From Opitutaceae bacterium (GTDB lineage: Bacteria > Verrucomicrobiota > Verrucomicrobiia > Opitutales > Opitutaceae): a DNA stretch of 51,401 bases. The translations under genes and the position numbers were made by a program. A model generated the notes under the pieces. It was not told the DNA's origin. It searched no databases and worked only from the letters and a program-made list of their open reading frames with translations. Below are positions 11,167 to 38,127 of the stretch, piece by piece (the first letter of the stretch is position 1; each line of letters opens with the position of its first letter). The stretch is taken from assembly GCA_947474995.1 (NCBI GenBank), contig CANJNJ010000016.1:1-51401 (forward strand). Reading direction: 5' to 3'.

Positions 11167-11173
11167 ATTTTTC

Positions 11174-12527: not shown

Positions 12528-12554
12528 CCGGGGTTTGGGCGCGCCGAACCCCGG
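12528..12554 (+). terminator. Hairpin after the phosphatase gene
   Basis: Perfect 8-bp stem CCGGGGTT (12528-12535) / AACCCCGG (12547-12554) whose 11-base loop holds GGCGCGCC. There is no T-run after it, so it may end transcription with Rho or protect the 3' end. Confidence 0.5.
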
Positions 12555-12594
12555 GATTGCCTGCCGGCTTCCTCCCGCCTAGTTCTTCGCCTTT

Positions 12595-18939: not shown

Positions 18940-19076
18940 AGAAATAGGCTGGCCCGCGCACCGGGGTGCGGAACCCTTTACGGTTGGGAACGAGTATAAA
19001 CGCAGAAACCGTTACCGACTCCACCACAATTGGCTCTCTCCTTGACCTCCTTTCCAAGGGAGAATCGCAGCAGTCA

Positions 19077-22000: not shown

Positions 22001-22262
22001 TCGGCAGCGCCGTGAGCAGATCCGAAGGCTGCGACGCATCGCGGATATCAATTTGCTCCAGGTTGAAGGTGGTGACGGGCAATACATTCTCGAAATCCAT
22101 CCGCTTGATGTTCGAGCCGGTGACCGTGAAGGTTTCCAGTTTGATGGTCTCGCCGGGTGTGGCGGCTGTCGAGGGCGCCGGCGCGGTCTGCGCCAGGCCC
22201 GTGAGGCCGCTCGCGAGCGCGGCGGCCAGGGCCAGGTATTTCAGTTTTTGTGGTGTTTTCAT
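19077..22262 (-). CDS. Large TonB-dependent receptor (second of a tandem pair)
   Basis: The start at 22262 gives MKTPQKLKYLALAAALASGLTGLAQ, a clear signal peptide, and a product of 1061 residues. The open frame continues 96 codons upstream but that part has no receptor character. IKLETFTVTGSNIKRMDFENVLPVTTF matches its downstream paralogue nearly word for word, as do the plug motifs SFRGLPSGNTLLLLNGRR, SIEILRDGASSIYGSDAV and GVVNYRM, and barrel words such as LPVTQQDKDFFAAYN and VSVDYWEIRQKSVIAASG. It is upstream of the 15784 gene on the same strand, so the two arose by duplication and are probably transcribed together. The ligand is unknown. Confidence 0.93.
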   Translation of the reverse strand: MKTPQKLKYLALAAALASGLTGLAQTAPAPSTAATPGETIKLETFTVTGSNIKRMDFENVLPVTTFNLEQIDIRDASQPSDLLTALPMVTGLPGNETANATQNARGDNASISFRGLPSGNTLLLLNGRRLAPHPIGQNENSVPSLSVNVNTLPNRGLESIEILRDGASSIYGSDAVAGVVNYRMNTHFRGTEVALRFGETSYRDGEEFRATLTHGLDFALGKGHLIVTADYYDRRAMFQSARWFSASGDHVGFAPAPWNVYTNTTFNGLTATSQYGQFAVGTVTGTTPYGRPIFTPARPAGIPATYAAANGNFFIVPLATGGATIGTAAPARSADGPGREYYWNLGNSRLIQPQSTRGSVFLSGEYELNSRLTAFADLSVYQAQSVSYRDPDVYTQSSDQDLVVPVTNPYNPFGNRFWSPTGASNADGTPRLTGTPTAVNIISHRFADFGLRKATITDAVYRGVVGLRGKFSNSWTWESAFLHSRTRGVEYEPAARISWLATAINSSDPAAAMNPFERSYAVRNGALVDTGAFVNAESVKASIYAPYIRNGITKLTSGDFRASGDVWPLWGGNKISGAVGGEIRSEGYDDYRPPFVGLNPPNSGFDPTRTDFVSASSQPDTHGNRHVGSAYAEGIFPLVGRDFKLPLVHSLEFSGSARFESYSRFGGSTKPKYGVNWKPVSWVMVRGSFNRGFRAPSLVSMFKGSFTGVTLSSTDSYRSIVTQQLTDGPSNRTNLTTGNHDLEPETSTGKSGGIVIDVPRVKGLSVSVDYWEIRQKSVIAASGTITDDTAALLAATQVALGAGQTINSIDLGSGTANYKGDLSAVVRLPVTQQDKDFFAAYNATRAPSNQRAVVGPIDHYLTSYINKSQQFVNGFDFDVSYRFARSTLGNFILDSNWTKLVSFYSNTTAGVPRTELLESNAAAAGGASPKWRGTTTLSWRRGKWGAGVGFYYIARYTDSGATTTKGVYDSLGNPGYIQPYFTNGATSFRYVVHDSKSYNLFLSYRLTTENRWLHDTSLRFGVINVLNAVPPLSSVTNGYDAAVYNTMARGRTYSLSLTKKL

Positions 22263-22568: not shown

Positions 22569-23207
22569 TCACTGCACCGCGCCACCCGTCGTCCGGAGAT
22601 CGCGTCGTACTTTCACCGTCACTTCGATCGCGCACGCAATGCCGTCGATCATCGTGGCCAACGGGAGACTCGGTCCGCCGGGCCGGGCCTGTTCCGGCAG
22701 GTACGGTAGATGAATGAAACCGCCCCGAATGCCGCGCTGCCACCGCAGCAGGTGCAGGAGCGCATAGAAGACATGATTGCAGACAAACGTTCCGGCCGTC
22801 TGCGACACGGCGGCGGGAATCTTCCGCTCGCGCAACGCGGCCACGATCGCCTTGACGGGCAGCCGCGACCAGTAGGCCGCGGGTCCGCCGCGGATCACGG
22901 GCAGGTCGACCGGCTGCCCACCGGCGTTGTCGGGAATGCGGGCGTCATCGACATTGATGGCGACGCGTTCGGGCGTAATTTCCGCGCGACCCCCGGCCAG
23001 CCCAAGGCAGATGACGACGCTCGGGTGCTGCGTCCGCACCAACCGCGCGAGCTCGTAGCGCGCTGCGCCGAAGACGCAGGGCAGCGTGGCGCCAATAATC
23101 TCGCGTCCGGCGATGACCCGCCCGTCGAGCGCCCGCGCGACTTCCTGCGATGGGTTGATCTGCTCACCCGCGAAGGGCTCGAAGCCGGTGATCAAAACGG
23201 TTTTCAT
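22569..23207 (-). CDS. pcp: Pyroglutamyl-peptidase I
   Basis: Cytoplasmic cysteine peptidase that removes N-terminal pyroglutamate (5-oxoproline) from peptides. The 212-residue product has the C15 family signature: TGFEPFAGEQINPS (7-20), catalytic Glu80 in ITPERVAINVDDARIPDN, Cys143 in QTAGTFVCNHVFY, and His166 in GGFIHLPYLPEQ. The full Glu-Cys-His triad is present and the length is normal. Its ATG directly abuts the stop codon of the DUF979 gene, which marks it as the last gene of a DUF969-DUF979-pcp operon. With pxpA and pxpBC 9 kb away, the product pyroglutamate can be turned into glutamate. Confidence 0.97.
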   Translation of the reverse strand: MKTVLITGFEPFAGEQINPSQEVARALDGRVIAGREIIGATLPCVFGAARYELARLVRTQHPSVVICLGLAGGRAEITPERVAINVDDARIPDNAGGQPVDLPVIRGGPAAYWSRLPVKAIVAALRERKIPAAVSQTAGTFVCNHVFYALLHLLRWQRGIRGGFIHLPYLPEQARPGGPSLPLATMIDGIACAIEVTVKVRRDLRTTGGAVQ

Positions 23208-24170
23208 CTAGAAGCGATACACGCAAAAATACATCAGCGCGACGTTCGCCACAAAGATAACGAGGGCCATCGGCGCCTGCGCCTTGATCACGCCGTGCGG
23301 ATCTTTCAGCTCGAGCAGGAGCGCGGGCACGAGATTGAAATTCGCCGCCATCGGCGTCAGCAGCGTGCCGCAGTACCCCGAGAGCATGCCAATCGCGGCC
23401 ATGATCGCCGGATTGCCATGGTGCTGCTGCACGATCAGCGGCAAACCAATGCCGCCCGTGATGACGGCAAACGCCGCGAAGGCGTTGCCCAGGCAGATCG
23501 TGAAGAGCATCATCCCAAGACAATAGGCCGCCACGGCGACAAAAGGGATCTGCGTCGGCAAAATCCGCCCGACCAGATCAGCCACGACCACGCCGACCCC
23601 GGCCCGATGGAAGATTCCGCCCAGCGCCGCCAGCAACTGCGGCAGAATCAAGGCCCAGCCAATCGACTGCAGCAGTCGCCCACCCTCCTGGGCCGGTGCC
23701 ATGGTCCGCGCGCCCGTCACGCGGCGGGCCGCATCGATCGCGATCAGGGCGCCGATACCCAGTGAAATCAACGCCACCTGCCTGGGGTCGACAAACCAGA
23801 ACCCGCCCACGTGGATTCGCCCGAGGACCAGCGAACCGACCAGCGCGACCACCGGGACGATGAGGGCCGGCCAGAACAGCCGGTTTCCCAGTCGCTCCGC
23901 CTCGGCGGCCCGCTCCGTTTGCGACGCGGCCGCAACCCTGGTCGGAGTCACCTGCCCCGCCGCAGCCAGCACGACCATCGCGAGCACAACGTAGCCCACC
24001 ACCATGGGCGGAAACACTTGGCCGAAAATAAAAACCGCCGCGAGCAGGGCCCAGAATGCGGCCGCACCCCAACGCCGCGGATGCAGCGGGTCACCGGCGA
24101 TGCGCACCGCCACCGTCGCGAGCACGGCACCGGCGATAAAATAGAACGCTTCGACGGTGATCAGCGTCAT
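23208..24170 (-). CDS. DUF979 membrane protein (probable transporter subunit)
   Basis: A 320-residue integral membrane protein starting MTLITVEAFYFIAGAVLA. I chose the ATG at 24170 because the frame further upstream is only a shadow of the DUF969 gene. About nine or ten hydrophobic segments are visible. Signature words are FGQVFPPMVVGYVVLAMVVLA, a conserved half with GNAFAAFAVITGGIGLPLIV, and MLSGYCGTLLTPMAANFN. DUF979 and DUF969 resemble dicarboxylate/ion-transporter-like permeases and often sit with pcp. The start overlaps the DUF969 stop by four bases (ATGA), so the two are translationally coupled and probably make one complex. Uptake of pyroglutamate or of pyroglutamyl peptides is an inference from the operon. 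Confidence 0.88.
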   Translation of the reverse strand: MTLITVEAFYFIAGAVLATVAVRIAGDPLHPRRWGAAAFWALLAAVFIFGQVFPPMVVGYVVLAMVVLAAAGQVTPTRVAAASQTERAAEAERLGNRLFWPALIVPVVALVGSLVLGRIHVGGFWFVDPRQVALISLGIGALIAIDAARRVTGARTMAPAQEGGRLLQSIGWALILPQLLAALGGIFHRAGVGVVVADLVGRILPTQIPFVAVAAYCLGMMLFTICLGNAFAAFAVITGGIGLPLIVQQHHGNPAIMAAIGMLSGYCGTLLTPMAANFNLVPALLLELKDPHGVIKAQAPMALVIFVANVALMYFCVYRF

Positions 24171-24856
24171 CGCAACCCCTCCGCCCCCTGCTCCGCCCGA
24201 TCGCGGGCGATGCGCCGATCCAGGGCGCGGCTCCGCCACGCCATCACCCCAAAGGCCACGACGGCCGTGGGAATTCCCCACCGGGCCATTTCCCACACGC
24301 CGACCTCCAGCTGCACACTCTCGAAAAATCCTTTCATCAACAGAATCGCCCCGACTGCGACAAAGATGTTCTCGCCGAAGAAATTCCCCATATTCTCCGC
24401 CGCGGCGGCGTGAGCCCGGATGCGCTCGATGGTTTTCTCCTGCAACGGCCCACCGTGCGCCCGGGCCGCCCCCACCGCCATCGGCGCCACCAGGGGTCGG
24501 ACCACACTGGCATGCCCACCAATGCTCACGCCGAGGCTGATCGCAATTTGGCGGATCCCCGTGTAGAATAGCACGACGCGTCCCGCCGTCGCGGCCGGCA
24601 GGCGCCGAATCAGCGTCTCCGCCCGCTGCTGCAGTCCGTGCCGTTCGAGCAGCCCGATCATCGGCGCGATCAGCACCACGGGCATCGTCATGTAGCGATT
24701 CTCCACAAAAAATTTCCCGAACTGCGTCATGATCTCGTTGAACGACATCCCCGCCACCAACCCAGTGACGATGCCCGCCGCCATGACGACCAGCAGCGTG
24801 TTGAACCGCAGCGCAAACCCGACGGCGACGACGAGGATGCCGACCAGCTTGATCAT
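24167..24856 (-). CDS. DUF969 membrane protein (probable transporter subunit)
   Basis: A 229-residue integral membrane protein. The ATG at 24856 gives MIKLVGILVVAVGFALRFN, a hydrophobic first helix. The frame extends upstream, but that would run into the divergent kinase gene's control region. About six membrane segments are seen, with conserved polar stretches MPVVLIAPMIGLLERHGLQ, GVSIGGHASVVRPLVAPMA and AAAENMGNFFGENIFVAVGA. It is the first gene of the DUF969-DUF979-pcp operon and overlaps DUF979 by four bases. Its 5' end is 112 bases from the histidine kinase start, so both share a control region. Confidence 0.88.
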   Translation of the reverse strand: MIKLVGILVVAVGFALRFNTLLVVMAAGIVTGLVAGMSFNEIMTQFGKFFVENRYMTMPVVLIAPMIGLLERHGLQQRAETLIRRLPAATAGRVVLFYTGIRQIAISLGVSIGGHASVVRPLVAPMAVGAARAHGGPLQEKTIERIRAHAAAAENMGNFFGENIFVAVGAILLMKGFFESVQLEVGVWEMARWGIPTAVVAFGVMAWRSRALDRRIARDRAEQGAEGLR

Positions 24857-24869
24857 GCCGCCACGCTTT

Positions 24870-24909
24870 GAGGGTGCGACGGGGACCGCGAGTTCTTTCC
24901 GCGAGGGTG
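24870..24909. promoter_or_regulatory. Direct repeats in the shared DUF969 / kinase control region
   Basis: CCGCGAG occurs at 24886-24892 and again at 24899-24905, 13 bases apart start to start. GAGGGTG occurs at 24870-24876 and 24903-24909, 33 bases apart (about three helical turns). Heptamer repeats of this kind suit a NarL-type regulator such as the one encoded at 26075. Whether they are bound is untested. Confidence 0.35.
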
Positions 24910-24968
24910 TTTTTTTGATTCCCGTGCTTTCGTCTTGGACGGGTTGGTCGCCCGGACAAATCTTCGCC

Positions 24969-26078
24969 ATGCCTTCCCGAACCGGAATTATCGCCCAAGT
25001 GGTCGCGTCAGGCCGCGCTTTGGGCCGGGCGATCGTTGCCGGCACCAATCCCAAGCGCAGTCGGTGGCTCGCGTTCGCCGCGTGGCTCCTTGTCTTGGGC
25101 CTCGGGGTGGCGGATTATCTGGTCGACGACGGTGACAGCTTCTCCTTCCGATTTTTCTACTGCTTGGCCGTCCTGCTGGCCGTCACGGCGCGAGGCTGGC
25201 GGTTCGGGATCTTGATTGCGGTCGCCAGCGTCGCGGTCATGACCGCCGGCGACGTCGGCTCGGGGGGCAGTGCTGCGAATGCCTTCACGCTTGGCTGGAA
25301 CGCCCTCATTTCCTTTAGCACCTATCTATTGATCGTCTGGCTGCTCTCCAGTTTTCTTACCTTGCAACGTGAAATCGAAGAACGGGTGCATCAGGGAACC
25401 CTGGCGTTGACCAGGGCGGCGGCGGAGCGCGAGCGCCTGGAGCGGGTGATCATGGCCAGCGGCGAAAAGGAACGCACGTCGATCGGGCAGGATCTGCACG
25501 ACGGACTCTGCCAGCATCTGACCGGGACGGCCTACGCCGCGCGGCTGCTGGCGGATGAGCTGGCCAATCAGGACGGTATCCTGGCCGCCAAAGCGCTCCG
25601 CATCGTCACGCTAATCGACGATGGCGTGGGGCAGACGCGCCGCCTGGCCAAAGGCCTGTTGCTGACGGCGGTGGAAGAGGATGGACTCGTGGCTGCATTG
25701 GAGGAACTCGCGGCCACGTCATCCGAGCAATTTCGCATCCCGTGTGAGTTCCACTGCGTGGGTGAGTCCCAGTTGGGTGATCGGCACGCCGCGTCGAATC
25801 TCTTTCGCATCGCGCAGGAGGCGGTGCGCAACGCCGCCCGGCACGGCAGGCCGGACCGCATCGTGATCGCGTTGGACGCGGAACCCGCGGCGTTGACGCT
25901 GACCGTGCAGGACAATGGCGTTGGCCTGAAAAACGGCCCGCCCTCGTCCGGCGGCCTCGGACTCCGCATCATGTCCTATCGCGCCGATCTCATCGGGGCC
26001 ACCTACACCGCCGAGTCCCTGCCTGGGGGCGGAACGTGCATCACCTGCCGGTTGCCCCGGAAAACATCCGCTTCATGA
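24969..26078 (+). CDS. NarL/DegS-type sensor histidine kinase
   Basis: A 369-residue membrane kinase beginning MPSRTGIIAQ at the ATG at 24969. The open frame is longer but would overlap the divergent gene. Four or so membrane segments lie between residues 33 and 132 with only short loops, so there is no separate periplasmic sensor domain. The HisKA_3 helix carries the phosphorylated His177 in SIGQDLHDGLCQHLTG. The ATPase domain has the N box NLFRIAQEAVRNAARHG, G1 VQDNGVGL and G2 GGLGLRIMSYRA. The stop overlaps the regulator's start by four bases. It is divergent from the DUF969-DUF979-pcp operon, its likely target. Confidence 0.93.
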   Translation: MPSRTGIIAQVVASGRALGRAIVAGTNPKRSRWLAFAAWLLVLGLGVADYLVDDGDSFSFRFFYCLAVLLAVTARGWRFGILIAVASVAVMTAGDVGSGGSAANAFTLGWNALISFSTYLLIVWLLSSFLTLQREIEERVHQGTLALTRAAAERERLERVIMASGEKERTSIGQDLHDGLCQHLTGTAYAARLLADELANQDGILAAKALRIVTLIDDGVGQTRRLAKGLLLTAVEEDGLVAALEELAATSSEQFRIPCEFHCVGESQLGDRHAASNLFRIAQEAVRNAARHGRPDRIVIALDAEPAALTLTVQDNGVGLKNGPPSSGGLGLRIMSYRADLIGATYTAESLPGGGTCITCRLPRKTSAS

Positions 26079-26758
26079 CCGCACCCACCGCAGAGCGATC
26101 AAACCGCAAAGTTCTCGTCTTCGTAGTCGACGACCACCCCTTGGTCCGGGAAGGCCTCGTCAGCATGATCAACCGCGAACCCGACCTGGCGGTTTGTGGC
26201 GAGGCGGAAGGCCTGCCCTCGGCCCTGGTCGCGATCGCGGCCAGGGTGCCCGATATCGTGATCACGGATCTTTCGCTCAAAGATGGCTCCGGTCTGAGCC
26301 TGATCAAAGAACTCCGGGCGCAGTATCCCGTGCTGAACATCCTGGTCGTTTCGATGCACGAGGAGTCCTACTACGCCGAGCGGGCCTTCCGCGCGGGAGC
26401 CCGCGGCTACCTCACCAAGCGTGAGTCGACCGGTCGCATTGCCGAGGCGATTCGCCGGGTGGTGCAGGGAAAAATCTACGCCAGCAACGAACTCCTGGAA
26501 AAGCTGGCCGAACGCTCCCTATCTCAGCCCGGCGACGAGCGCAGGTCACCCACCGACCTGCTGAGCGATCGCGAACTGGAAGTTTTTCAACTCTATGGAC
26601 GCGGGCTGGAATCAAAGCAGGTGGCAAAGGACCTCGGCCTGAGCATCAAGACCGTGGAAGCCTATACCGCCCGAATCAAAGAAAAGTTGGGCCTGGGCAA
26701 TTTCAACGAATTCATTCGTGCCGCCGCGACGTGGAGCCAACCGGAAACTCCGGACTAA
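26075..26758 (+). CDS. NarL/FixJ-family response regulator
   Basis: A 227-residue DNA-binding partner of the preceding kinase. The ATG at 26075 overlaps the kinase stop (ATGA). A start 13 codons earlier is possible but lies inside the kinase gene. The receiver domain (12-130) has the acidic pair Asp19-Asp20, phospho-acceptor Asp65 in VITDLSLKDGS, and Lys115 in GYLTKRES. The LuxR-type helix-turn-helix (about 160-220) has LLSDRELEVFQLYGRGL and SIKTVEAYTARIKEKLGL. The probable target is the divergent DUF969 promoter and its own operon. Confidence 0.94.
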   Translation: MTAPTAERSNRKVLVFVVDDHPLVREGLVSMINREPDLAVCGEAEGLPSALVAIAARVPDIVITDLSLKDGSGLSLIKELRAQYPVLNILVVSMHEESYYAERAFRAGARGYLTKRESTGRIAEAIRRVVQGKIYASNELLEKLAERSLSQPGDERRSPTDLLSDRELEVFQLYGRGLESKQVAKDLGLSIKTVEAYTARIKEKLGLGNFNEFIRAAATWSQPETPD

Positions 26759-27123
26759 CGGGCGCCCGCGCGGTCGGTCGAGGCCAGGGACGGGGTCGCA
26801 GCCTGAACCCGCGGTTTGAGCCTCCGAGCTACCCGAAGGTCCCCCGCACCTCTGGAGAAGGGAACTCCGAAGGCAGCCCACACAGTTGCCACGCCGTCTC
26901 GGCGAAACGACCGAATTGGCCGGATGAGACTTCCCCTCAGGGTTGTTGGTTTTCGGCATCGCACCCACAAAAAAGGGGTTAAAGCGGCGACGAAGATCTC
27001 CCGAGCGCCCATAGGCGCTACGCACACCTGCGTCGTGGCCCTTGATTTTTGCGCCTCTTCGTGGCCAAAAACTTCGGGCAATTGGACGCGCGGCTAGACC
27101 CCGTCGGGTTGGAGCGAAGCCCG
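26759..27123. other. Gene-free convergent junction with a short palindrome
   Basis: 365 bases between the regulator and a receptor gene on the opposite strand. It contains the palindrome AGCGCC-CATA-GGCGCT (27004-27019), which could end transcription. The frames that cross it are not supported as genes, and I see no RNA gene. Confidence 0.5.
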
Positions 27124-29283
27124 TTAATACGTCCACGTCACTCCGCCAAAGAAGCCCCGGCGGGCTCCAAACTTGGGCGCGCCGACGCCGATCCCCGTGC
27201 CGTCGTTGAGGACATAGCGCTGGTCAAAGACATTGATAACATCGAGTCGCAGCGTCACGAGGCTCGATTGCCCGACGGGAATACGGCGCTCGAGGCCGAG
27301 ATTGACGGGATAGTAGGACGGCAGCTTGTCCTTGTTGTGGTCGCCCGTGTGCATGCCATCGCCGTAGATGACGTCGCCGTGGATCGTCGTGTGCTTCCAC
27401 GCGTACGAGGCACCGGCCGACGCCGTGTAGTACTGCGTCTGATCGAGCGTGACATTGTGTTTCTTGATGTAGGCCAGTTCGTCCGCCTCGAATTCGAACT
27501 GGCTCGAGATGATGTTTCTCGCCCAGCCGTCGGACGCGGCGAAATTGGCGTAGGCGGCGAACGGCCCGCGCGTATAGGCGAGCGCGAGTTCAACGCCGTA
27601 GATCGTCGCGGTCTCGAAATTGAAGGGCGAAAAGATATTCGCCGCACCGAACTGGCCGTCGTCGATCTGATGGCGGGCGCGCTTGTAGTAGGCTTCCACC
27701 CCCAGCTCCCACCCCGGCGAAAAACTGTGGGTGAAGCCGGCATCGAAATAGTTGGAACGCTCGCAGCGCACCGGGTCGTCATCGGACACATCCGGCGAGT
27801 TCGTCGTCTTTTCGAAAAACTTGTCGACACTGGTCGGGGAGACGTTTTCGAGCGGCGGCGGGATGAAGTAGCGGGCGAAACCCGCATGCAGTTTCGTGTC
27901 GCTCGATAGCTGGTAGACGGCGCTGAACCGCGGGCTGACCTGATTTTCCCGCACGTAAGCCTGGACGTTCTCGAACCGGGCGCCGAGATTGACCGTCAAC
28001 CGTTCGGTGGCTTTCCACTCGTCCTGCAGGTAAAAATTCGCGTCGTAGCCGCGCTGGGTATGGTTGTCGGCGATCGTGAATGGTGCCGCCTTCGCGATCC
28101 ACTTTCCGTTAATCGGATTCACGTCATCGTCTTCCGCGGCGAAAACACTCACCTTGTTGTTGGCCCGGGCCCGGGCGGCATCGAGCAGCAGCCCACCCCG
28201 GACGGTATTGTCGGCCCCGGCCCGATAAGTGAAGTCCGCCTGAAGCCCCAACGTGAGGATGTCGCGGAACACCCGCGCCGCCACCCCCTTGAAGTAGAGG
28301 TCGCCGATAACGTCGGGTTTGAAGAGCACCCCGCTATAGCGGCTTATCTGGGAAACCTGAAATGAGAGGTCTGGCAGTGTCTGCCGATAGCTCGCGATCG
28401 CGTAGTACGATTGCTCGGTCTGATTTTCGTCCAGCTTGCTGGAATCGGGAACGGGATAGTTAGCGACCCGCCAGGCTTCTCCCCGCCGGAGAAATTCGAT
28501 TTCGCTCGTCTGGTGCGGATTGTTGGGAATCTGGAAATCGGCGTGCGCCGCGCTGAAAATCAGGCTGAGACTGCTCGATTCGGACAACTGGCGCGACACA
28601 TAGCCGAGGCCCTGGTACTGGCGGGTACGGTCGTGGATGGCTTCCGCGCTCGAGGTCGGGTTCTCGATTCCGAGGTTGTTGGAGACGCCCCCCATGGTCA
28701 GAAAGTACTCGGTCTTGCCCTTGGACCCGCCGGTCGCCGCCGTCGCATGGAGGGTGTCGTGGCTTCCTCCGTAGAGCGAGAGCTCGCTCCCGGCGAGGCT
28801 CGCCCCGGTTTTCGATTCGACGGACACAATGCCGTAGTTGCCCCACGCGTATTGCGCGGGCAGCGCGCCAACCTTGGCCGAAAGCGAATCGACGAAATGG
28901 GTGTTAATCTGCTGCGCGAAGCCGTTGATCGCCCGCGGCAGGAGTACGCCATTGAGGTAATACTGCGAGTATGGGTCTTCCAAACGAAAGTGGACCTCCC
29001 CGGCGCTGTCCTTCGAGACGCCCGGAGTCCGGAAGAGGATCTGGTTGAAGGTCGACTCCGCCCCCTGCGCGATGGTGTCGATTTGCCCGCGACTCAACGT
29101 ATAGATGCTCGTGCCAAGACTGGTGACAGTCTGGACCGTTGGAGCCACGCGAACCGCCGGCAGCACCGTCGGGGCCGGCTCGGCGCCCCAGGCGCAGGCA
29201 GCGAGAGCCAGACCGGCGAGCACGAAGGCCGGACAGCGTGGTGGCAGTGCGGGGCTTCCCATTGGTTTCGAGAGTAATCTCAT
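27124..29283 (-). CDS. TonB-dependent receptor
   Basis: An outer-membrane receptor of about 719 residues. The start is uncertain: 29283 (MRLLSKPMGSPAL) is given here; 29262 and 29301 also work. A signal-type hydrophobic stretch, FVLAGLALAACAWGAEP, follows. The plug domain has TFNQILFRTPGVSKD, EVHFRLEDPYSQYYLNGV, FVDSLSAKVGALPAQYAWG and GIVSVESKTG. The barrel includes YDANFYLQDEWKATERL, a typical late-barrel strand, and ends FFGGVTWTY. FRLEDPYSQYYLNGVLLP in place of the usual RG-and-DG plug words makes it a divergent member. It is divergent from another receptor at 29513, with 229 bases between the starts. The ligand is unknown. Confidence 0.9.
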   Translation of the reverse strand: MRLLSKPMGSPALPPRCPAFVLAGLALAACAWGAEPAPTVLPAVRVAPTVQTVTSLGTSIYTLSRGQIDTIAQGAESTFNQILFRTPGVSKDSAGEVHFRLEDPYSQYYLNGVLLPRAINGFAQQINTHFVDSLSAKVGALPAQYAWGNYGIVSVESKTGASLAGSELSLYGGSHDTLHATAATGGSKGKTEYFLTMGGVSNNLGIENPTSSAEAIHDRTRQYQGLGYVSRQLSESSSLSLIFSAAHADFQIPNNPHQTSEIEFLRRGEAWRVANYPVPDSSKLDENQTEQSYYAIASYRQTLPDLSFQVSQISRYSGVLFKPDVIGDLYFKGVAARVFRDILTLGLQADFTYRAGADNTVRGGLLLDAARARANNKVSVFAAEDDDVNPINGKWIAKAAPFTIADNHTQRGYDANFYLQDEWKATERLTVNLGARFENVQAYVRENQVSPRFSAVYQLSSDTKLHAGFARYFIPPPLENVSPTSVDKFFEKTTNSPDVSDDDPVRCERSNYFDAGFTHSFSPGWELGVEAYYKRARHQIDDGQFGAANIFSPFNFETATIYGVELALAYTRGPFAAYANFAASDGWARNIISSQFEFEADELAYIKKHNVTLDQTQYYTASAGASYAWKHTTIHGDVIYGDGMHTGDHNKDKLPSYYPVNLGLERRIPVGQSSLVTLRLDVINVFDQRYVLNDGTGIGVGAPKFGARRGFFGGVTWTY

Positions 29284-29349
29284 CTTTGAAATTCGCCGCA
29301 AGAGTAACCGTCCCCCCCGCCGCCGGATAGCAGGCGACGCCTAAATTTC

Positions 29350-29370
29350 GTGTCAGGCCAGCCCCGACAC
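29350..29370. repeat. Short inverted repeat between the divergent receptor genes
   Basis: GTGTC (29350-29354) / GACAC (29366-29370) around 11 bases, in the shared upstream region of both receptors. It could be a regulator site, but the arms are short. Confidence 0.25.
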
Positions 29371-29512
29371 AAAAACACCCCACATGATTCTTGCGGAACG
29401 CACGCGGGCATTCCTCAATGAAATAAGCAAACCTCGCCCGCGCGCGTCGACCTGCCGATCGCCGTGATCGGCACCCACCGGATGGATCGGTCCTGCTCTC
29501 CACTCTCCTACG

Positions 29513-31699
29513 ATGCACACCCAACATTTCCTCGTCATTCTTGTCCTGCTGGACGGACTCGGTCTCCTCCGCGGCCAGACCGCGCCCGCGCCAACCGAGC
29601 CCGTCACGATGAACACGGTGGTCGTTTCGGACGTCTCCACCAGCTCGGACATCTATCGCCTCGAACCCGTCCAGGGGACCTACATCAACGCGGGAAAGAA
29701 AAATGAAGTCATCGATGTCGGTGCACTAAACGCCAATATCGCGGAGAAAACGGCGCGGCAGATTTTCGCCAAGATTCCGGGCGTTTTCGTGTACGACATG
29801 GATGGGGCGGGTAATCAGATCAACATCGCCGCCCGCGGACTCGACCCGCATCGCGGTTGGGAGTTCAACATCCGCAAGGACGGGGTCATTACCAACTCCG
29901 ACATGTTCGGCTATCCCGCCAGCCACTACAGCATGCCGATGGAAAGCATCGACCGCATCAATCTGGTTCGCGGCACCGGCTCCCTCCAATACGGCGCCCA
30001 ATTCGGCGGGATGCTGAACTACGTCGGCAAGCAGGCCGACCGCAACCGGCCGTTCACTTTCGAAACCATCAACACCGTGGGCTCGTTCGGCCTTCGCAGC
30101 ACCTACGACGCCGTGGGTGGCACCGTGGGCAAGGTTTCGTACTACGCCTACTATAACCAGCGCGTATCCGACGGCTACCGGGACAATGCCCACACCGACT
30201 CCGAGTCGGAGCAGGTAACCCTGGCCTTTGCCCCGTGGGAGAATCTAACCATCAAGGCCGAATGGGCGCGCTCAAATTACACCTATCGCATTCCCGGGCC
30301 CTTGACCGACGCGATGTTTCACGCCGATCCCACCCAGTCGATCCGGTCGCGCAACTACTTCAATCCGGACATCAATGTCCCTTCGCTCAGCGCCGAGCTG
30401 AAACTCTCGGACCACAGCCAGATCCATTTGACGAGCTCGGCCGTGATTGGGGCCCGGAACAGCGTCTTGTTCGACAAGACCCCGAACATCTTGGACGTCA
30501 TCGATCCGGTGACGAAGCAGCCGGCCAACCGGCAAGTCGATATCGATCATTTCAACAGCTACACGACCGAGGTGCGGGTGCTGCAGCAGTATCTCCTCGG
30601 AGGGCGCTATAGCTCCCTGGCGGCCGGCGTGCAGTTCATGGACAATGACCTGCACCGGCAGCAACTCGGCAAGGGCACGACCGGAAGCAATTTCGACCTG
30701 TCACTGGTCGCGCCGGGCTGGGGCCGCGATCTTCATCTCAAGTCACAAAACGTCGCCTACTTCGTGGAGAACAATTTCAAGGTCGCGGAAAATCTTTCGT
30801 TCAACGCCGGCGCGAGAATGGAGAACGGGCGCTCCAACATGAGCGGAACCATTACTTATCTGGCCGACGCGGTGCCCAATCGCATCAGTCACAACTATAC
30901 GCTGCTGGGAGCAGGCCTGGAGTACAATCTGGGAAACCGCCAGAATCTTTACGCGGGCTGGTCGCAGGCCTACCGCCCCGTCATTTTCAAAGACATCATT
31001 CCGGGGGCCACGTATGACCGGGCGGACAAGAACCTGAAGGATGCCAACGGCTACAACCTGGAGGCGGGTTACCGCGGCGATTGGAAATTCCTGAAGTGGG
31101 ACGTTGGGGTGTTCAACGTGCGGTACAACCACCGCCTCGGAAAAATCTCTCTGGTCGATCCGGCCGGCAATTTCTATATTTATCAAACGAACATCGGCGA
31201 TTCCGTCAGCCGGGGCGCGGAAGTATTCGTCGAAGCCAGTTTCCCGATTAGTCCCGCGGTCGGATTTTCTCTGTTTACGTCGACCTCATACCTGGTGGCG
31301 CGCTACGAAAATGCCCGGGTCGCCGCGGGGACGGCGACGTTCAATGTCAGTGGCAACGATGTCGAAAGCGCCCCTCGCTGGATGTCCCGCAACGGAATGA
31401 CCCTGAAATGGCGTCGAGTCAGCCTGAGCATGCTCTACAGTTATGTCGGCGACAGCTACGCCGACCCGCTCAACACGGTGGCGCCCTCCGCGACCAGTGC
31501 CTTGGGGCTGGTTCCCTCCTACGGCCTGCTCGACGTCAATGCCACCTTCAAGGCTACGGAAAAGCTGACGTTTAAGGTCAACCTCAACAACGTGGCCGAC
31601 CGACAGTACTTCACCAAGCGCCCGCTGTTCTACCCCGGGCCGGGCGTCTGGCCGTCGGATGGACGAAGCGTTAGCGTGTCGGTCGGATGGAAGTTGTGA
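29513..31699 (+). CDS. TonB-dependent receptor, FecA-like
   Basis: A 728-residue outer-membrane receptor with signal peptide MHTQHFLVILVLLDGLGLLRGQ. Plug motifs are ARQIFAKIPGVFVYDMDG, INIAARGLDPHRGWEFNI, MESIDRINLVRGTGSLQYG and FGGMLNYV. This wording, with a RGLDPHRG plug and a short N-terminus, resembles the ferric dicitrate receptor FecA branch. There is no N-terminal signalling domain and no FecIR pair nearby. The barrel ends VSVSVGWKL. Ferric citrate is one possible ligand, but the family also contains other metal and organic ligands. It lies between the pcp and pxp genes, which makes a role in uptake of pyroglutamyl compounds a possibility only. Confidence 0.92.
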   Translation: MHTQHFLVILVLLDGLGLLRGQTAPAPTEPVTMNTVVVSDVSTSSDIYRLEPVQGTYINAGKKNEVIDVGALNANIAEKTARQIFAKIPGVFVYDMDGAGNQINIAARGLDPHRGWEFNIRKDGVITNSDMFGYPASHYSMPMESIDRINLVRGTGSLQYGAQFGGMLNYVGKQADRNRPFTFETINTVGSFGLRSTYDAVGGTVGKVSYYAYYNQRVSDGYRDNAHTDSESEQVTLAFAPWENLTIKAEWARSNYTYRIPGPLTDAMFHADPTQSIRSRNYFNPDINVPSLSAELKLSDHSQIHLTSSAVIGARNSVLFDKTPNILDVIDPVTKQPANRQVDIDHFNSYTTEVRVLQQYLLGGRYSSLAAGVQFMDNDLHRQQLGKGTTGSNFDLSLVAPGWGRDLHLKSQNVAYFVENNFKVAENLSFNAGARMENGRSNMSGTITYLADAVPNRISHNYTLLGAGLEYNLGNRQNLYAGWSQAYRPVIFKDIIPGATYDRADKNLKDANGYNLEAGYRGDWKFLKWDVGVFNVRYNHRLGKISLVDPAGNFYIYQTNIGDSVSRGAEVFVEASFPISPAVGFSLFTSTSYLVARYENARVAAGTATFNVSGNDVESAPRWMSRNGMTLKWRRVSLSMLYSYVGDSYADPLNTVAPSATSALGLVPSYGLLDVNATFKATEKLTFKVNLNNVADRQYFTKRPLFYPGPGVWPSDGRSVSVSVGWKL

Positions 31700-31712
31700 G
31701 GGCGATAATCCG

Positions 31713-31775
31713 TGTGACCTGTGACCTGTGGCGTGGGAAGAGCGGATCTCATTCTCCAAGTCACACGTCACACCC
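31713..31775. repeat. Inverted repeat at the receptor / pxpA convergent junction
   Basis: GTGTGACCTGTGACCTGTGG at 31712-31731 is mirrored imperfectly by the complement at 31758-31775 (reverse complement GGGTGTGACGTGTGACTT). The left arm carries a GTGACCT direct repeat. It may act as a terminator for both genes. Confidence 0.6.
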
Positions 31776-31801
31776 CACGCAGTCTACGGGCGAAAGCTTA
31801 G

Positions 31802-32539
31802 CTACGTCCCAAATGCCCTGACCGCCACGCCCGCCACCGCGAGTTCCTTCCTCAGCCGTCGCGCAAATTCCACCGCGTGGGCTCCATCGCCGTGCAGGCA
31901 GACGGTGTCGGCCGCAATCGCCACGTCGCGGCCATCGACCGCTCGCACCCGGCCATCGGCCACCATCCGCAACACTTGGTGCACTGCGGCGGCTTCATCC
32001 TGAATCGTCGCCTGCGGTTGGGATCGCGGCGTCAGGTTTCCATCAGCCTGATAGGTGCGGTCCGCGAAAACTTCCTCCGCTACGCGCAAGCCCCGCGCGC
32101 GTCCCGCTTCGGCGAGTCGACTCCCGGACAACGCAAACAAGACCAACTTCGGAAAGTGCCGCACCAACCCATCCACCACGACCGCGGCGAGTGCTTCGTC
32201 CCGTGACACCTGATTGTAGAGCGCGCCGTGCAGTTTGACATGGCGCAGCGCCGGACCCGCTACCTCGTGCAAGGCCTGCACTTGCGTCAGCACCAGCCCA
32301 GCCGCCTCGTCCGGGGTAACCGCGCGTTCCAACCGGCCAAAATTGCCCGGTTCGTGGTACCCTGGATGAGCCCCGATCGCGACCCCATGCCGTTCGGCCA
32401 GTGCGACCGTCGAGCGCATGGTCGCGCGATCGCCCGCGTGCGCACCGCACGCGATGTTTGCCGAGGTAATGAGCGGCATCAACTCGGCGTCGTGGGCGGC
32501 TCCCTCGCCAAGATCGCAGTTCAGGTCGATGCGTTTCAT
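31802..32539 (-). CDS. pxpA: 5-oxoprolinase subunit A (LamB/YcsF family)
   Basis: Part of the ATP-dependent PxpABC 5-oxoprolinase that opens pyroglutamate to glutamate. The ATG at 32539 gives 245 residues beginning MKRIDLNCDLGEG, the family start. The longer open frame has no family similarity upstream. Conserved stretches are ITSANIACGAHAGD, GVAIGAHPGYHE, VKLHGALYNQ, EVFADRTYQADGNLTPR and DTVCLHGDGAHAVE, all signature words of YcsF proteins. It lies 79 bases downstream of the pxpBC fusion on the same strand, so all three subunits come from one operon. Confidence 0.95.
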   Translation of the reverse strand: MKRIDLNCDLGEGAAHDAELMPLITSANIACGAHAGDRATMRSTVALAERHGVAIGAHPGYHEPGNFGRLERAVTPDEAAGLVLTQVQALHEVAGPALRHVKLHGALYNQVSRDEALAAVVVDGLVRHFPKLVLFALSGSRLAEAGRARGLRVAEEVFADRTYQADGNLTPRSQPQATIQDEAAAVHQVLRMVADGRVRAVDGRDVAIAADTVCLHGDGAHAVEFARRLRKELAVAGVAVRAFGT

Positions 32540-32618
32540 GCCGCCCAGTAACGCCGGTCTCCGACCGGTTTCGGAGGAATTGCGCTCAAGCATGGTCGAA
32601 GAAAATCCATGGCACCCC

Positions 32619-34265
32619 CTACCGCATCTTCTGCGCGAGGCCTTCCTGGAGAATCGCCAGCGCGCGTTCCCGGACCCGGGCATGTTCGTGCGCTTCGTCC
32701 AAGGTCATTTCCTGAAAACGCACCGTGTCGCCCGGCCGGACCTGGGCCATGAGCGGCAGATCATTCGCGATCACGTGCGCCACCTGCGGGTAGCCGCCGA
32801 TCGTCTGCGCGTCGGCGAGCAATACAATCGGCTGTCCATCCGGCGGAACCTGAATTGTCCCCGGAACCACCGCCGCCGACAAGAGTTCGCTCGGGGCGTT
32901 TCGCGCCAGGGCCGCACCGTGCAATCGCACGCCCATGCGATCGGCTTGGGGCGTCACCGTGTAGGTGCCTGAAAAAAATTCCGGGCCAAATTCATCGGCC
33001 TGCGCACCGCGGACAACACGAATTACCGGCGCACCGGAATAGTGCGGGAGAATTCGTTCATCGATATGCCAGCGGCCCCTGAGGCTGCGCGCCAACCCAG
33101 GGAGGGGCAGGACATCACCCGGATTCAGCGGGCGGCCGTTGAAGCCACCAAACGCGGCCCGCACATAGGTACTGCGGCTGCCCAGCACGAGGGGCACGTC
33201 CATCCCACCCGCGACGGCCAGGTAGCCTCGGCAGCCACGACGGACCTGCCCTATATTCAGCACGGTACCGGCCTTGATGAAAAGCGGCTGCCAACTCGGC
33301 AGGCCGGTGACCTCCGCTCCACCGAGCGCCACAATCGTGTCGTGGTGAAATTTTAATTCCGGCGCGATCATCGTGAATTCCAGGCCGGCCGCGCCCGGCG
33401 GATTGCCCACGAGGAGATTGGCCACGCGCAGCGCGAACGTGTCGGCCGCTCCACTCAGCACCACCCCCTCCGCCCGGTGGCCGACGCGACCGGCGTCCTG
33501 GACCGTCGTGAACACCCCAGGTCGAATCACCTCGATCCCGGCGCTCCCGTCCGGCCCCGCGCTCGGCGTGGTACCGCCCGGATAAATTTCCGCCGCCATC
33601 TGCGCAAACTCTTCCGGATGGATCGCCCGGAATTGCACATGATCGCCCGCCTCCAGCAGGGCCGGTTCGGAGCGACCCGGATCGAAGAGGCGCAGCGGGG
33701 TCCGACCGATCAGGCTCCACCCTCCCGGAGTCGCCAACGAATAAACTCCGGTCTGCGCTCCCCCGATTCCCACCGTCCCTGCCGGCACCCGGGGACGCGG
33801 CGTCGCTCGCCTTGGTGTGGCCAATTTTTCCGGCAGGCCGCCCAGATAGGGAAAGCCCGGGACAAAGCCGATCGCATGCACGAGGTAGTCCGCCCCCGAA
33901 TGCAACGCGATGACTTCACGCACCGGGAGCGCATGCTGGCCCGCCACTTCCTCGAGGTCCGGCCCAAACTCGCCCCCGTAACACACGGGGATTTCCACTC
34001 GCCTCGGCTCGCCCGAAACGACCGCGTGATCCGCCTCCGTCGCAATCGCCTCCAGGTCGGCGCCTAATTTGGCCAAGCTGTCGCTGTGCGCCGCGTCGTA
34101 GAACACGGCGACACTCGCGAAGGCGGGAACGACGTCGACGACTCCGCGCAACCGGCGGTGCTCGATCGCGGCCGCCAGGGACCGCACGCGGGCGACCATG
34201 GCCGAATCGACTACGCCACCCAGGGTCAGAACCACGGCCGAGTCGCCCAGCGGAGAGAGCGTCAT
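32619..34265 (-). CDS. pxpBC: 5-oxoprolinase PxpB-PxpC fusion (KipI-KipA / AHS1-AHS2)
   Basis: A 548-residue natural fusion of two subunits that are separate in Escherichia coli and Bacillus. Residues 1 to about 230 are PxpB (AHS1): MTLSPLGDSAVVL start and the signature HAIGFVPGFPYLGGLP, followed by VPAGTVGIGGAQTGVYSL. A short Gly/Pro/Ser-rich linker (about 230-242) leads to PxpC (AHS2), starting IEVIRPGVFTTVQDAGRVG and including LGGAEVTGLP, GYLAVAGGM and DRMGVRLHG. Together with PxpA it makes the complete ATP-dependent 5-oxoprolinase. The same two domains fused occur in allophanate and urea-linked enzymes too, but the adjacent pxpA settles the role. Confidence is high. Confidence 0.95.
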   Translation of the reverse strand: MTLSPLGDSAVVLTLGGVVDSAMVARVRSLAAAIEHRRLRGVVDVVPAFASVAVFYDAAHSDSLAKLGADLEAIATEADHAVVSGEPRRVEIPVCYGGEFGPDLEEVAGQHALPVREVIALHSGADYLVHAIGFVPGFPYLGGLPEKLATPRRATPRPRVPAGTVGIGGAQTGVYSLATPGGWSLIGRTPLRLFDPGRSEPALLEAGDHVQFRAIHPEEFAQMAAEIYPGGTTPSAGPDGSAGIEVIRPGVFTTVQDAGRVGHRAEGVVLSGAADTFALRVANLLVGNPPGAAGLEFTMIAPELKFHHDTIVALGGAEVTGLPSWQPLFIKAGTVLNIGQVRRGCRGYLAVAGGMDVPLVLGSRSTYVRAAFGGFNGRPLNPGDVLPLPGLARSLRGRWHIDERILPHYSGAPVIRVVRGAQADEFGPEFFSGTYTVTPQADRMGVRLHGAALARNAPSELLSAAVVPGTIQVPPDGQPIVLLADAQTIGGYPQVAHVIANDLPLMAQVRPGDTVRFQEMTLDEAHEHARVRERALAILQEGLAQKMR

Positions 34266-34563: not shown

Positions 34564-35877
34564 CTATTGTACCGCCGCCGAGGTGGAGTCCTCCGCGGGC
34601 ACGAAGCCGTTGAGCGTGCGAAGGTCGTTCACTTCCAGCAGCGCCGTGCCCGTCGTGCCCGTCGTGCCCGTCGACGAGGAAACGATGGCACTGTAATTGC
34701 CCGGGGGCAGCACCAACAAGAGCGCCGACTCGAGGCTATTGGTCGGGACACCCGGGACATTCGCCAGGTCCGTGCCCGTCGTCGCGCCCACGTCGTCGTT
34801 GCTCGCGATCGCCCGACCCGCCGAGTCATAGACGGTCAGCCGCGGATTGGCCAGGACGCCCGTCACGCCAAAGGCGGTCAGCGACGGACCCTTCGCCGTA
34901 ATCAGCGCCCGAATCGGATCCGGGCCGTTCACCGTGATGCCCTGGATCAGCACCTGGTCGCCCGTGCCCACCGTGCCGCGTACCGAAAGATTGGAGAAAC
35001 GCGTGCCCGCCACTTCGTCCGAAGCGCGCACCTGCCCGCGCAGCTCGCCCCCGGAAAACGTCCCCACCGTATGGAAGTTGAGGTAGGAGCCACCCGTCAG
35101 CAGCTTGATCACATCACCTGGGTACGGAATGTCGAAGGTCCCGGAAATGTGCCCATTCCCGTTGGAATAGGAACCACCGTTGGCGAACGTCGCGTTCGGA
35201 TTGTTCCCGAGGGTGACCACCACGCCGCCGCTCACGCCCGGCGCCCCTTCGTGGAAATGCGAATTGTTGAGCACGTTGTTAAAGTTGTAGAGCGAAAGGC
35301 GCAGGCTCACGCGGTTGTTGAAGGCATCGTAGAACATCACCGCGCCGCCAAAATCATTCAGCCCCGCGAAATTCAAGGCCGGAAACGCCGCCGCTTCCTG
35401 CGCCACCGTCATGTTCGCCACCAGCCGCTTCGGCTGCGCGATCAGCTGACCGCGCACTTCGCCGCTGGGAAATTGCGGTGAGTGATAGTTGAGGTAGGCT
35501 CCACCTTGCAGCAATTTCAGTTTGTCGCCGGGGTACGCCACGCTGCGCATCGCCGCGGTCAGCGTCCCACCGGTGTTGGTGAACGAGGCCAGGGGAAAAT
35601 GGATCACCGCCGAGCCGTTGGCCCCGGCCACCGCTTCCTGCACATGGGCGTCAGTCAGGGTGTTGGTGTAACCATTGATGGAAACGATGAGGTCGAATGC
35701 GTTCGCCCCGAGATCGTAGAGCATGATGGCCGTACCCCGGGCCACCGAGGCTGTGGCGGGCACTTCCTGCGTCGCATTGATCGTGGCGCGCAGTTCGATC
35801 ACTTGGGAGCGGGCGGAAAACGTGAAGGCAAAGATCGTCGCGAGAGCGGACAAACGACGAATTAGAGAGGTGGGCAT
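34564..35877 (-). CDS. Secreted CHRD-domain protein with C-terminal shared surface module (copy 1)
   Basis: The ATG at 35877 gives 437 residues with signal peptide MPTSLIRRLSALATIFAFTFSARSQ. Two CHRD domains follow (about 26-150 and 155-290); each has the pattern AIMLYDLGANAFDLIVSI, HxxEAxxG, and GDKLKLLQGGAYLNYHS...GEVRGQL. Residues about 300-437 form a beta-rich module (VRGTVGTGDQVLIQGITV, ALITAKGPSLTAFGV, NPRLTVYDSAGRAIASND, LVLPPGNYSAIV) also found in the neighbour at 35986 and the protein at 49268. Near the end, TGTTGTTGTALLEV is encoded by three exact 9-base repeats (34646-34672); its neighbour has two. The function of bacterial CHRD domains is unknown. It is probably an extracellular surface protein. 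Confidence 0.85.
   Translation of the reverse strand: MPTSLIRRLSALATIFAFTFSARSQVIELRATINATQEVPATASVARGTAIMLYDLGANAFDLIVSINGYTNTLTDAHVQEAVAGANGSAVIHFPLASFTNTGGTLTAAMRSVAYPGDKLKLLQGGAYLNYHSPQFPSGEVRGQLIAQPKRLVANMTVAQEAAAFPALNFAGLNDFGGAVMFYDAFNNRVSLRLSLYNFNNVLNNSHFHEGAPGVSGGVVVTLGNNPNATFANGGSYSNGNGHISGTFDIPYPGDVIKLLTGGSYLNFHTVGTFSGGELRGQVRASDEVAGTRFSNLSVRGTVGTGDQVLIQGITVNGPDPIRALITAKGPSLTAFGVTGVLANPRLTVYDSAGRAIASNDDVGATTGTDLANVPGVPTNSLESALLLVLPPGNYSAIVSSSTGTTGTTGTALLEVNDLRTLNGFVPAEDSTSAAVQ
34604..35065. repeat. Near-identical segment shared by the two CHRD genes
   Basis: Copy at about 34604-35065 matches about 36031-36485. Long runs are identical; for example the stretch around the ATTGCCCGGGGGCAGCACC word agrees for more than 60 bases (near 34697 and 36108). 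This points to recent duplication or gene conversion rather than old paralogy alone. Confidence 0.75.
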
Positions 35878-35925
35878 GGGTGTCTGGTTGGGAAATTGCA
35901 GCAGCTTCGATGCGGGTCTTAGCAA

Positions 35926-35955
35926 GAACCCGGCGCCCTCACGGGCACCGGGTTC
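35926..35955 (-). terminator. Hairpin between the two CHRD genes
   Basis: GAACCCGG (35926-35933) / CCGGGTTC (35948-35955) with an almost complementary inner part (CGCCC / GGGCA). It lies 31 bases past the stop of the upstream CHRD gene and 49 before the next start. The T content after it is low, so termination is likely only partial. Confidence 0.5.
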
Positions 35956-35985
35956 GAGTGGTAAACAAAAAATCTGGACCGCGTC

Positions 35986-37293: not shown

Positions 37294-37473
37294 ATGGGTG
37301 GGCTTTAGGGGTAAACGCCCGACCAAAGACCGGCACGCGTGGAAAGGTAACAGGATGGTAAGAATTGCCCGAAAATCGCCGCCGGCGAAAAAAAGTCTGA
37401 GCTGTGTCGCGCGCGGATAATTGGGTGGATTACGTTGTATTTTCGCCGCAAATCGGTGACCTGATTTATTTCC

Positions 37474-38127
37474 ATGAAAGCCCGCCTCCCTATTCTTATC
37501 CTTTGCCTGTCATCACTCGTGTTCACGGCCTGCCCGGATACGAAGGTCACGAGCTATCGCGTCCCAAAGGAAAAGGAGCCCACGATGCCCGTGGCCGCCG
37601 CGGCCGGGTCCCCTTCCGCCCCGACGCCGCCGATGGCTTCCGCCGCTCCGGCCATGGGGGCCCCCGGCATGGCCGGCACTCCGGTGGCGACGGCGACGGG
37701 CACAAATCTGACTTGGACTGCGCCGGCTCATTGGAAGACGAAGGCCGCCTCCGCCATGCGCAAGGGCACCTACACGCTGCCCGGTGACGGTGGCGCGGAT
37801 GCCGAACTTGCGATCACCGCGTTTCCCGGCGACGTCGGCGGCGAACTGGCCAACGTCAACCGCTGGCGCGGCCAAATTCAATTGCCGCCAGTCGGTGAGC
37901 CTGCCCTCGCGACCGCGATCACCCGCCTCGAGAAAAACGGTTTGAAGATCGCCATCGTCGACGCCGTCGGGCCCGGCGCCACGCCGCAGCACCTCCTCGG
38001 GGCGATGATTCCGTTTGGCGGCGCCACCTGGTTTTTCAAGATCACCGGACCGGACGCGACGGTCACGAAGGAAAAATCTGCGTTCCTCTCCTTCCTGGAT
38101 AGCATCAAGCCCGCCGCGACCCCATGA
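37474..38127 (+). CDS. Putative lipoprotein upstream of resB-ccsA
   Basis: A 217-residue protein with a lipoprotein signal: MKARLPILILCLSSLVFTAC, with lipobox VFTAC at residues 16-20. After the Cys comes a Pro/Ala/Met-rich linker (about 35-78) and then a soluble domain (about 80-210) with WTAPAHWKTK, a GTYTLPG strand, AELAITAFPGDVGG and MIPFGGATWFFKITG. I do not recognise the family; the fold looks like a small beta-rich domain of the kind seen in protein families of unknown function. Its stop codon overlaps the resB start by four bases, so it belongs to the cytochrome c maturation operon and may act with ResB or CcsA at the periplasmic face. Confidence 0.75.
   Translation: MKARLPILILCLSSLVFTACPDTKVTSYRVPKEKEPTMPVAAAAGSPSAPTPPMASAAPAMGAPGMAGTPVATATGTNLTWTAPAHWKTKAASAMRKGTYTLPGDGGADAELAITAFPGDVGGELANVNRWRGQIQLPPVGEPALATAITRLEKNGLKIAIVDAVGPGATPQHLLGAMIPFGGATWFFKITGPDATVTKEKSAFLSFLDSIKPAATP

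Follow-up and report, generated by a model that had tools for sequence, protein, structure and literature searches.

A Probable Pyroglutamate Operon Interrupted by a 6.9 kb Block in an Opitutaceae Genome

The DNA analysed here, hereafter the window, is a stretch of 51,401 nucleotides from an Opitutaceae bacterium (contig CANJNJ010000016.1, assembly GCA_947474995.1), and makes up the entire contig C16 in an assembly of 5.24 Mb with a completeness of 96%. It carries the genes for a putative 5-oxoproline (pyroglutamate) importer of the DUF969 and DUF979 families, a pyroglutamyl peptidase (Pcp), and a 5-oxoprolinase (PxpA and a PxpB-PxpC fusion), and, between them, those for a sensor kinase, a response regulator and two TonB-dependent receptors. 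Probably, this is the usual pyroglutamate operon of the family, into which, in the lineage of the window, a block of 6.9 kb has come to separate pxpA from DUF969. The initial annotation of this DNA had described a split locus; two separated halves are indeed found, but the gene order of the family is kept, and the locus is better read as one interrupted operon.

The genes named in the initial annotation are real and lie where it placed them, with family scores far above chance. The pcp gene (22569–23207, reverse strand) encodes a pyroglutamyl peptidase I of 212 aa that begins with MKTVLITGFEPF, scores 244 bits against Peptidase_C15, and passes the equivalog model TIGR00504 (261.6; cut-off, 201.75). 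Its best solved relative is 3lac (E-value, 2 × 10−71); the alignment spans residues 1–210, and the E, C and H blocks, which we take to be catalytic, are all there. No hydrophobic leader was seen; thus, Pcp is presumably cytoplasmic. The ATG of pcp directly follows the stop codon of DUF979 (23208–24170, reverse strand; PF06166, 376.5 bits; cut-off, 26), which in turn has an ATGA (24167–24170) in common with DUF969 (24167–24856, reverse strand; PF06149, 270.2 bits; cut-off, 32). All three 5-oxoprolinase subunits are encoded together on the reverse strand, by pxpA (31802–32539; 245 aa; LamB_YcsF, 287 bits; best solved relative, 1xw8) and by the pxpB-pxpC fusion (32619–34265; 548 aa; CT_C_D, 243 bits; CT_A_B, 300 bits), the best solved relative of which, 3oep, has both parts covered by the alignment. 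The NCBIfam cut-offs are passed by PxpA (NF003814, 286.4; cut-off, 226; as well as the subfamily model NF003816), by PxpB (TIGR00370, 231.4; cut-off, 145.55) and by the PxpC-type domain (TIGR00724, 294.6; cut-off, 230.2), which, together with the result for Pcp, bears out the complete 5-oxoprolinase plus Pcp of the initial annotation. Stricter equivalog models were not reached (score/cut-off for PxpC NF045499, 261.3/500; for PxpA NF003815, 303.8/337, NF003812, 254.8/378, and NF003813, 245.1/392), such cut-offs being thresholds for naming and not properties of the enzyme.

The family sample comprises 150 genomes, with that of the window among them; DUF979, PxpA and Pcp score over their cut-offs in 45, 100 and 72 of these, respectively. 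DUF979 occurs together with PxpA in 44 of its 45 genomes (Fisher p, 9 × 10−9) and with Pcp in 39 (Fisher p, 3 × 10−10), the related genomes not being independent; in the 45th genome (G088), the locus is cut by a contig end. The co-occurrence of the two halves in related genomes, proposed as a check in the initial annotation, is thus present. The matches to PxpA and DUF979 are at most 1.1 kb apart in 37 of the 45 genomes, which leaves room for DUF969 but not for the block. Larger distances are seen in the window (7.7 kb), G060 (6.0 kb) and G086 (1.6 kb); the two matches are on different contigs in G142, G038, G072 and G131, and G088 has the contig end mentioned above.

The usual order in the family is pxpB-pxpC-pxpA-DUF969-DUF979-pcp, all on one strand, with a homologue of the window gene at 37474 and resB-ccsA divergent beside pxpB. 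The window keeps this order, the strand and the resB-ccsA flank; it has, in addition, two genes for CHRD-domain proteins ahead of that flank, and the block that separates pxpA from DUF969. Within the genus, DUF979 is found over the cut-off in 11 of 27 genomes, and pxpA and DUF979 lie 0.7–0.85 kb apart in nine of these; the remaining two are G168, with the genes on different contigs, and the window. A set of 80 named DUF969-DUF979 loci from several phyla, many of which are Opitutae loci that the family set contains as well, has pxpA in 52 loci and directly upstream of DUF969 (within 300 bp and on the same strand) in 39. As pxpA and DUF969 overlap by ATGA in G006, translational coupling has probably been lost in the window. 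In two other genomes of the genus, G139 (locus L047, 9531–9792) and G104 (locus L048), pxpA adjoins pcp, with no DUF969 or DUF979 between, and it follows that the importer can be missing cleanly from its slot in the operon. The pxpA/DUF969 junction holds additional DNA in two further loci. In L033 (G060; 8347–13109), a 5.2 kb block encodes an SSF symporter together with a hybrid histidine kinase that bears an SBP_bac_3 sensor domain and is divergent from DUF969; in L034 (G086; 6815–7261), the insert is 0.9 kb long and has a small open reading frame on the opposite strand, hemerythrin-like by eye.

The importer pair and PxpA of the window have different descents. For all trees, rows with a match under 75% of the query were left out. 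The tree of DUF969 and DUF979 (53 rows) has two well-supported divisions: 20 rows make up type I, and the other 33, with the window among them, type II. In a wide tree of 109 rows (56 more sequences; built quickly, rooted at the midpoint, and without those named loci in which DUF969 equals a family row or the DUF979 match is short), all of these 53 rows fall into one Verrucomicrobiota group together with a gammaproteobacterial metagenome-assembled genome (L172); type I is inside this group, and the neighbour group is Bacillota. The PxpA tree places the window with L224 and L225 of the same genus (support, 99/83), which have a type I importer, while in the tree of DUF969 and DUF979 it stands with L061 and with L218 of the same genus (85/98). 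Approximately unbiased (AU) tests, with groups that were picked after the trees were known, rejected the grouping of the window with L224 and L225 for the importer (p, 1 × 10−64) and that with L061 and L218 for PxpA (p, 1.5 × 10−4). In the Pcp tree, the window is sister to G139 (96/85, with a bootstrap that had not settled). On the PxpA tree, 10 changes of importer type are counted (mean after shuffling, 14.8; one of 200 shuffles as low), a number that may be too high because 16 of the 63 forks of this tree are open, and type I as a single PxpA clade was rejected (p, 7 × 10−62). A second DUF979 match occurs in G027 alone, where each of the two matches covers one part of the family model and lies on a contig of its own. 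Since the importer types alternate on the PxpA tree and no genome of the sample holds two full copies of DUF979, DUF969/DUF979 pairs of the two types seem to have been exchanged in the same operon slot.

According to the literature, the DUF969/DUF979 pair has been proposed as a 5-oxoproline transporter (PMC11467057, which names Niehaus 2017; PMC12795558), and the latter paper describes a Campylobacter jejuni mutant in cj0552-4 (DUF969/979/2891) that did not grow on 5-oxoproline as nitrogen source—a result called preliminary there, in a mutant in which DUF2891 was also affected. The initial annotation had assumed import by this pair as well. As a 5-oxoproline importer, the assumption agrees with the co-occurrence and with the printed proposals and is probably right, but it is not new, because the transporter was already in print. 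The fold likeness described below is reported for DUF979 in general in PMC11467057, and the model of the window protein agrees with it.

The AlphaFold model of DUF979 (predicted local distance difference test, pLDDT, 87.7) best matches one half of TRAP QM, VcINDY, ArsB and Pho90. In the VIA-align comparison, rows 1–24 are TRAP, DASS, ArsB or MleN chains, which we take to belong to one superfamily, with Z-scores of 10.9 to 7.3, and the first unrelated row has a Z-score of 6.8; the best Foldseek hit is YdaH (E-value, 7 × 10−3), with none at 0.001. For helical proteins, a Z-score under about 13 can mean a mere common arrangement, and the evidence that DUF979 is one repeat unit of the DASS/TRAP/ArsB ion-transporter fold is therefore moderate. 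A search by sequence yielded no solved relative of DUF979 up to an E-value of 1. For the DUF969 model (pLDDT, 79), transporter chains are mixed with unrelated helical proteins, the best of them being NaS1 (Z-score, 8.1; rank 5), and no similarity between the sequence profiles of DUF969 and DUF979 was found.

Compared with 52 family sequences, the window DUF969 departs at several conserved columns: it has V128 (E in 52/52), N163 (D in 52/52), Q at E77 (50/52) and M at L58 (51/52). In the 80 named loci, E128 is present in all 80, one of the two search patterns for this set (PMAE) containing E128 and thus partly selecting it, while D163 is found in 78 and L in the other two. Position 77 is not special, with E in 68 and Q in seven of the same loci. 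Departures at well-conserved columns are equally or more numerous in six other DUF969 rows, and the DUF979, Pcp and PxpA of the window show no excess of them. On accelerated evolution of DUF969, the relative-rate test was mixed: the window protein is faster than that of L061 (p, 0.0005 to 0.013) and not faster than those of L218 or L032 (p, 0.20 to 0.31). In comparison with the published transporter, the window has the same adjoining, overlapping gene pair and a DUF979 model of about one repeat of the ion-transporter superfamily, and differs by V128, N163 and the separation from pxpA. Neither pxpA nor pcp was matched in the fetched stretch, which was short in some cases, of 18 of the 80 named loci (such as L203, L207, L208 and L213–L216; L184, L192, L195, L200 and L209; L204, L205 and L212). 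The three groups of loci named here hold Burkholderia, Gemmatimonadota and alphaproteobacterial pairs; there, the pair may have other substrates, or the pathway may lie elsewhere.

The interrupting block (24857–31801) fills the 6,945 bp between the 5' end of DUF969 and the 3' end of pxpA; from pcp to pxpA the distance is 8.6 kb, in accordance with the 9 kb of the initial annotation. The block begins with a divergent intergenic region of 112 bp (24857–24968), followed by the genes for a sensor kinase (24969–26078, forward strand) with HisKA_3 and HATPase_c domains and an N-terminal part that is hydrophobic by eye, and for a NarL-type response regulator (26075–26758, forward strand) with receiver and GerE domains, the two genes overlapping by ATGA. 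Then come the first block receptor (27124–29301, reverse strand; PF00593 barrel, 106 bits; no Plug match at E ≤ 10−3) and the second (29513–31699, forward strand), which has a Plug domain and is siderophore-receptor-like, the cut-off of TIGR01783 not being reached. All of the arrangements described initially—the ATGA shared by DUF969 and DUF979, the abutting pcp, and the divergent kinase and regulator—were seen. The kinase and regulator resemble NarX/UhpB-type and NarL-type pairs in the HisKA_3 kinase, the GerE regulator and the overlapping genes, but score below every NCBIfam cut-off among the models listed (nine in the case of the kinase and 25 of 68 in that of the regulator).

As for the claim that the importer half has its own two-component system, 73 family and genus loci were compared for homologues of the block genes. 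Relatives of the kinase and regulator were found in one of them (L079; 40% and 55% identity), and at E ≤ 10−50, the kinase is absent from all 10 other genus genomes with DUF979 over the cut-off; on this co-occurrence, the two-component system was rejected as a conserved operon partner. The receptors of the window, four in all, have no homologue in these 73 loci at E ≤ 10−6 and were likewise rejected as conserved partners, which speaks against a role of a receptor in bringing the substrate across the outer membrane; among the 80 named loci, there is one match to the window receptor TB3 at E ≤ 10−5. The promoter of DUF969-DUF979-pcp presumably lies in the 112-bp region, if it is not inside the kinase gene. 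A scan limited to the sigma-70 consensus gave four promoters, with 3.2 expected, and none in the 112-bp region, and the similarity of this region to the upstream region of the G139 kinase is at the level of chance (an equal or higher score is reached by 124 of 500 random pieces).

Within the genus, the kinase has an orthologue in G139 (70% identity), on contig 115 (12.9 kb, without pxp genes), where it is followed by a different receptor. This genome has no DUF979 match, its pxpA and pcp adjoin on contig 23, and an orthologue of the second receptor, the only other match at E ≤ 10−60 in the 150 genomes, is on contig 34. As these G139 orthologues are 70–73% identical, the same divergence as for pxpA and pcp, the kinase, the regulator and the second receptor look like resident genes that moved. 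None of the 11 loci around the nearest relatives of the kinase matches the pxp, pcp or DUF969/979 genes; four of the 11, those covered by the Pfam scan, have genes for receptors or AcrB-type pumps. AcrB-type pumps are found in L098, L099 and L100, and a homologue of the first receptor in L099 and L100. The first receptor has homologues at E ≤ 10−40 in 24 other family genomes, with the nearest relatives (74–75%) in G061 and G017, which belong to other genera. Where PxpA is present, these homologues are on another contig than PxpA, except in G071, in which both are on one contig, more than 2 Mb apart. A partial second copy of the first receptor is also seen on contig 61 of G000 (13323–14063; L122), with 64% identity over 247 residues and one internal TAA.

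Positions 24885–24900 match 31836–31851, in the 3' end of pxpA, at 15 of 16 bases in the same orientation, and may be a footprint of the rearrangement, a weak one, since 13 of 2965 random pairs of window stretches score equally high. As for a mobile element, no long repeat flanking the block was found. The G+C content of the block (59–65%, against 64–67% for the pxp and DUF genes) decides nothing, because 62% is also the value for a receptor gene that does not belong to the block.

Based on the protein families and the published work, DUF979 and DUF969 would each contribute about one repeat of the ion-transporter-superfamily fold and, as a heterodimer, would jointly carry 5-oxoproline across the inner membrane. 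Cytoplasmic Pcp would free further 5-oxoproline from pyroglutamyl peptides, and PxpB-PxpC together with PxpA would open it to glutamate, using ATP. The kinase, the regulator and the receptors would most likely be bystanders brought in by the rearrangement, by which co-transcription would have been lost, and the importer genes would now need a promoter of their own.

Several observations weigh against this reading. The interruption is found in one assembled genome, with the attendant risk of an assembly error, although the block and both flanks lie on one contig. The insert of G060 at the same junction again has a histidine kinase divergent from DUF969, and in G149 relatives of the kinase and regulator are encoded some 1.8 kb past pcp. 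Because of these two genomes, a regulatory link keeps some standing; the kinases beside DUF969 in two lineages could be due to chance or to repeated recruitment. In the six other genus genomes of the family sample, no homologue of the first receptor is found at E ≤ 10−40, so that the block cannot be called wholly resident. With V128 and N163, moreover, the importer may have left its old job. It was initially proposed that the two-component system senses pyroglutamate or its peptides and controls DUF969-DUF979-pcp through the 112-bp region, and that a receptor imports the substrate across the outer membrane. The divergent arrangement over these 112 bp is in line with this proposal, as are G149, with its kinase and regulator relatives near pcp, and G060, the kinase of which is a different one with an SBP_bac_3 sensor domain; nevertheless, it is very unlikely, given the scarcity of the kinase, regulator and receptors at related loci, the presence of the orthologous kinase in G139 without DUF969/979, and the lack of a shared upstream site beyond chance. 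Free 5-oxoproline is also small enough for porins, which weighs against a need for receptor uptake. That the rearrangement put the importer half under the divergent two-component system, and that the lost acidic residues mark a changed coupling ion or substrate, i.e., a new job, is highly improbable.

A different origin of the segment is quite possible, if short of probable, and would be compatible with an interrupted operon: the ancestor would have had pxpA-pcp without an importer, as in G139, and would have acquired DUF969-DUF979 from another lineage of the family, possibly along with the block. This would explain why PxpA and the importer group the window differently, with crosswise groupings rejected, why its Pcp is sister to that of G139, where pxpA and pcp adjoin, and why the first receptor is without a close relative in the other sampled genomes of the genus; against it, the kinase, regulator and second receptor look resident, and the roughly 10 changes of importer type occurred mostly at junctions without a block. 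It is unlikely that the importer pair has been decaying since the split and has ceased to carry 5-oxoproline. The loss of the acidic residues at columns 128 and 163 would fit, as would the genus, in which DUF979 is missing or below the cut-off in 16 of 27 genomes, several of them incomplete, and PxpA is present in 25, but both frames are intact, the proteins encoded alongside do not depart from conserved residues in excess, the relative-rate test gave a mixed result, and the PMAE pattern partly selects E128. It is quite unlikely, too, that the pair imports pyroglutamyl peptides instead of free 5-oxoproline, Pcp then being the enzyme that acts first inside the cell; although DUF979 accompanies Pcp in 39 of 45 genomes, and named loci such as L186, L190 and L197 have Pcp next to DUF979 and nothing that matches pxpA over the stretch fetched, the six DUF979 genomes without Pcp all have PxpA (the sequence of G085 ending soon after DUF979), and the reported growth of C. 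jejuni on free 5-oxoproline needed cj0552-4 (PMC12795558). These alternatives overlap in part, and their likelihoods, together with that of the interrupted operon, are not shares of one whole.

The operon differs from the closest known 5-oxoprolinase systems. According to PMC13274462, pxpTABC of Corynebacterium glutamicum has the importer PxpT and the GntR regulator PxpR. The window shares with it, and with the prokaryotic PxpABC operon (Niehaus 2017, as described in citing papers), the three enzyme subunits and a linked importer; it differs by DUF969/DUF979 in place of PxpT/YcsG, the fusion of PxpB and PxpC, pcp in the cluster, the absence of a GntR-type PxpR beside the cluster, and the 6.9 kb interruption. 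Judged by titles and the beginnings of abstracts, none of the literature matches listed describes an interrupted pxp-DUF969 operon, and the literature search found no paper joining Opitutaceae and 5-oxoprolinase. The pathway is ordinary and its arrangement unusual and lineage-specific; new are the interruption and two oddities, namely two importer types that alternate in one slot, apparently by exchange in place, with a history unlike that of PxpA, and the lost acidic residues (V128 and N163). The family usually encodes the pathway in a single operon, in which the importer slot seems to change its occupant, and E128 and D163 of DUF969 are candidate working residues in a transporter family with hardly any functional data. 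The locus is also a warning that a kinase beside a transporter should not be taken as its regulator without checking the relatives.

Some neighbouring genes were not part of the initial annotation or stand outside the operon. Downstream of pcp, on the same strand, two large TonB-dependent receptors, both absent from the initial annotation, are encoded in tandem (19077–22262 and 15784–18939, reverse strand; 15784–22262 together), starting 306 bp past pcp. On the other side, two adjoining CHRD-domain proteins (34564–37326) are apparently a tandem duplicate; of 25 genus loci, 13 have a CHRD gene, located from pxpB-pxpC towards the resB-ccsA side. The gene at 37474–38127, beside resB-ccsA, encodes a 217-aa protein that has no Pfam match and a homologue in 34 of 54 family loci.

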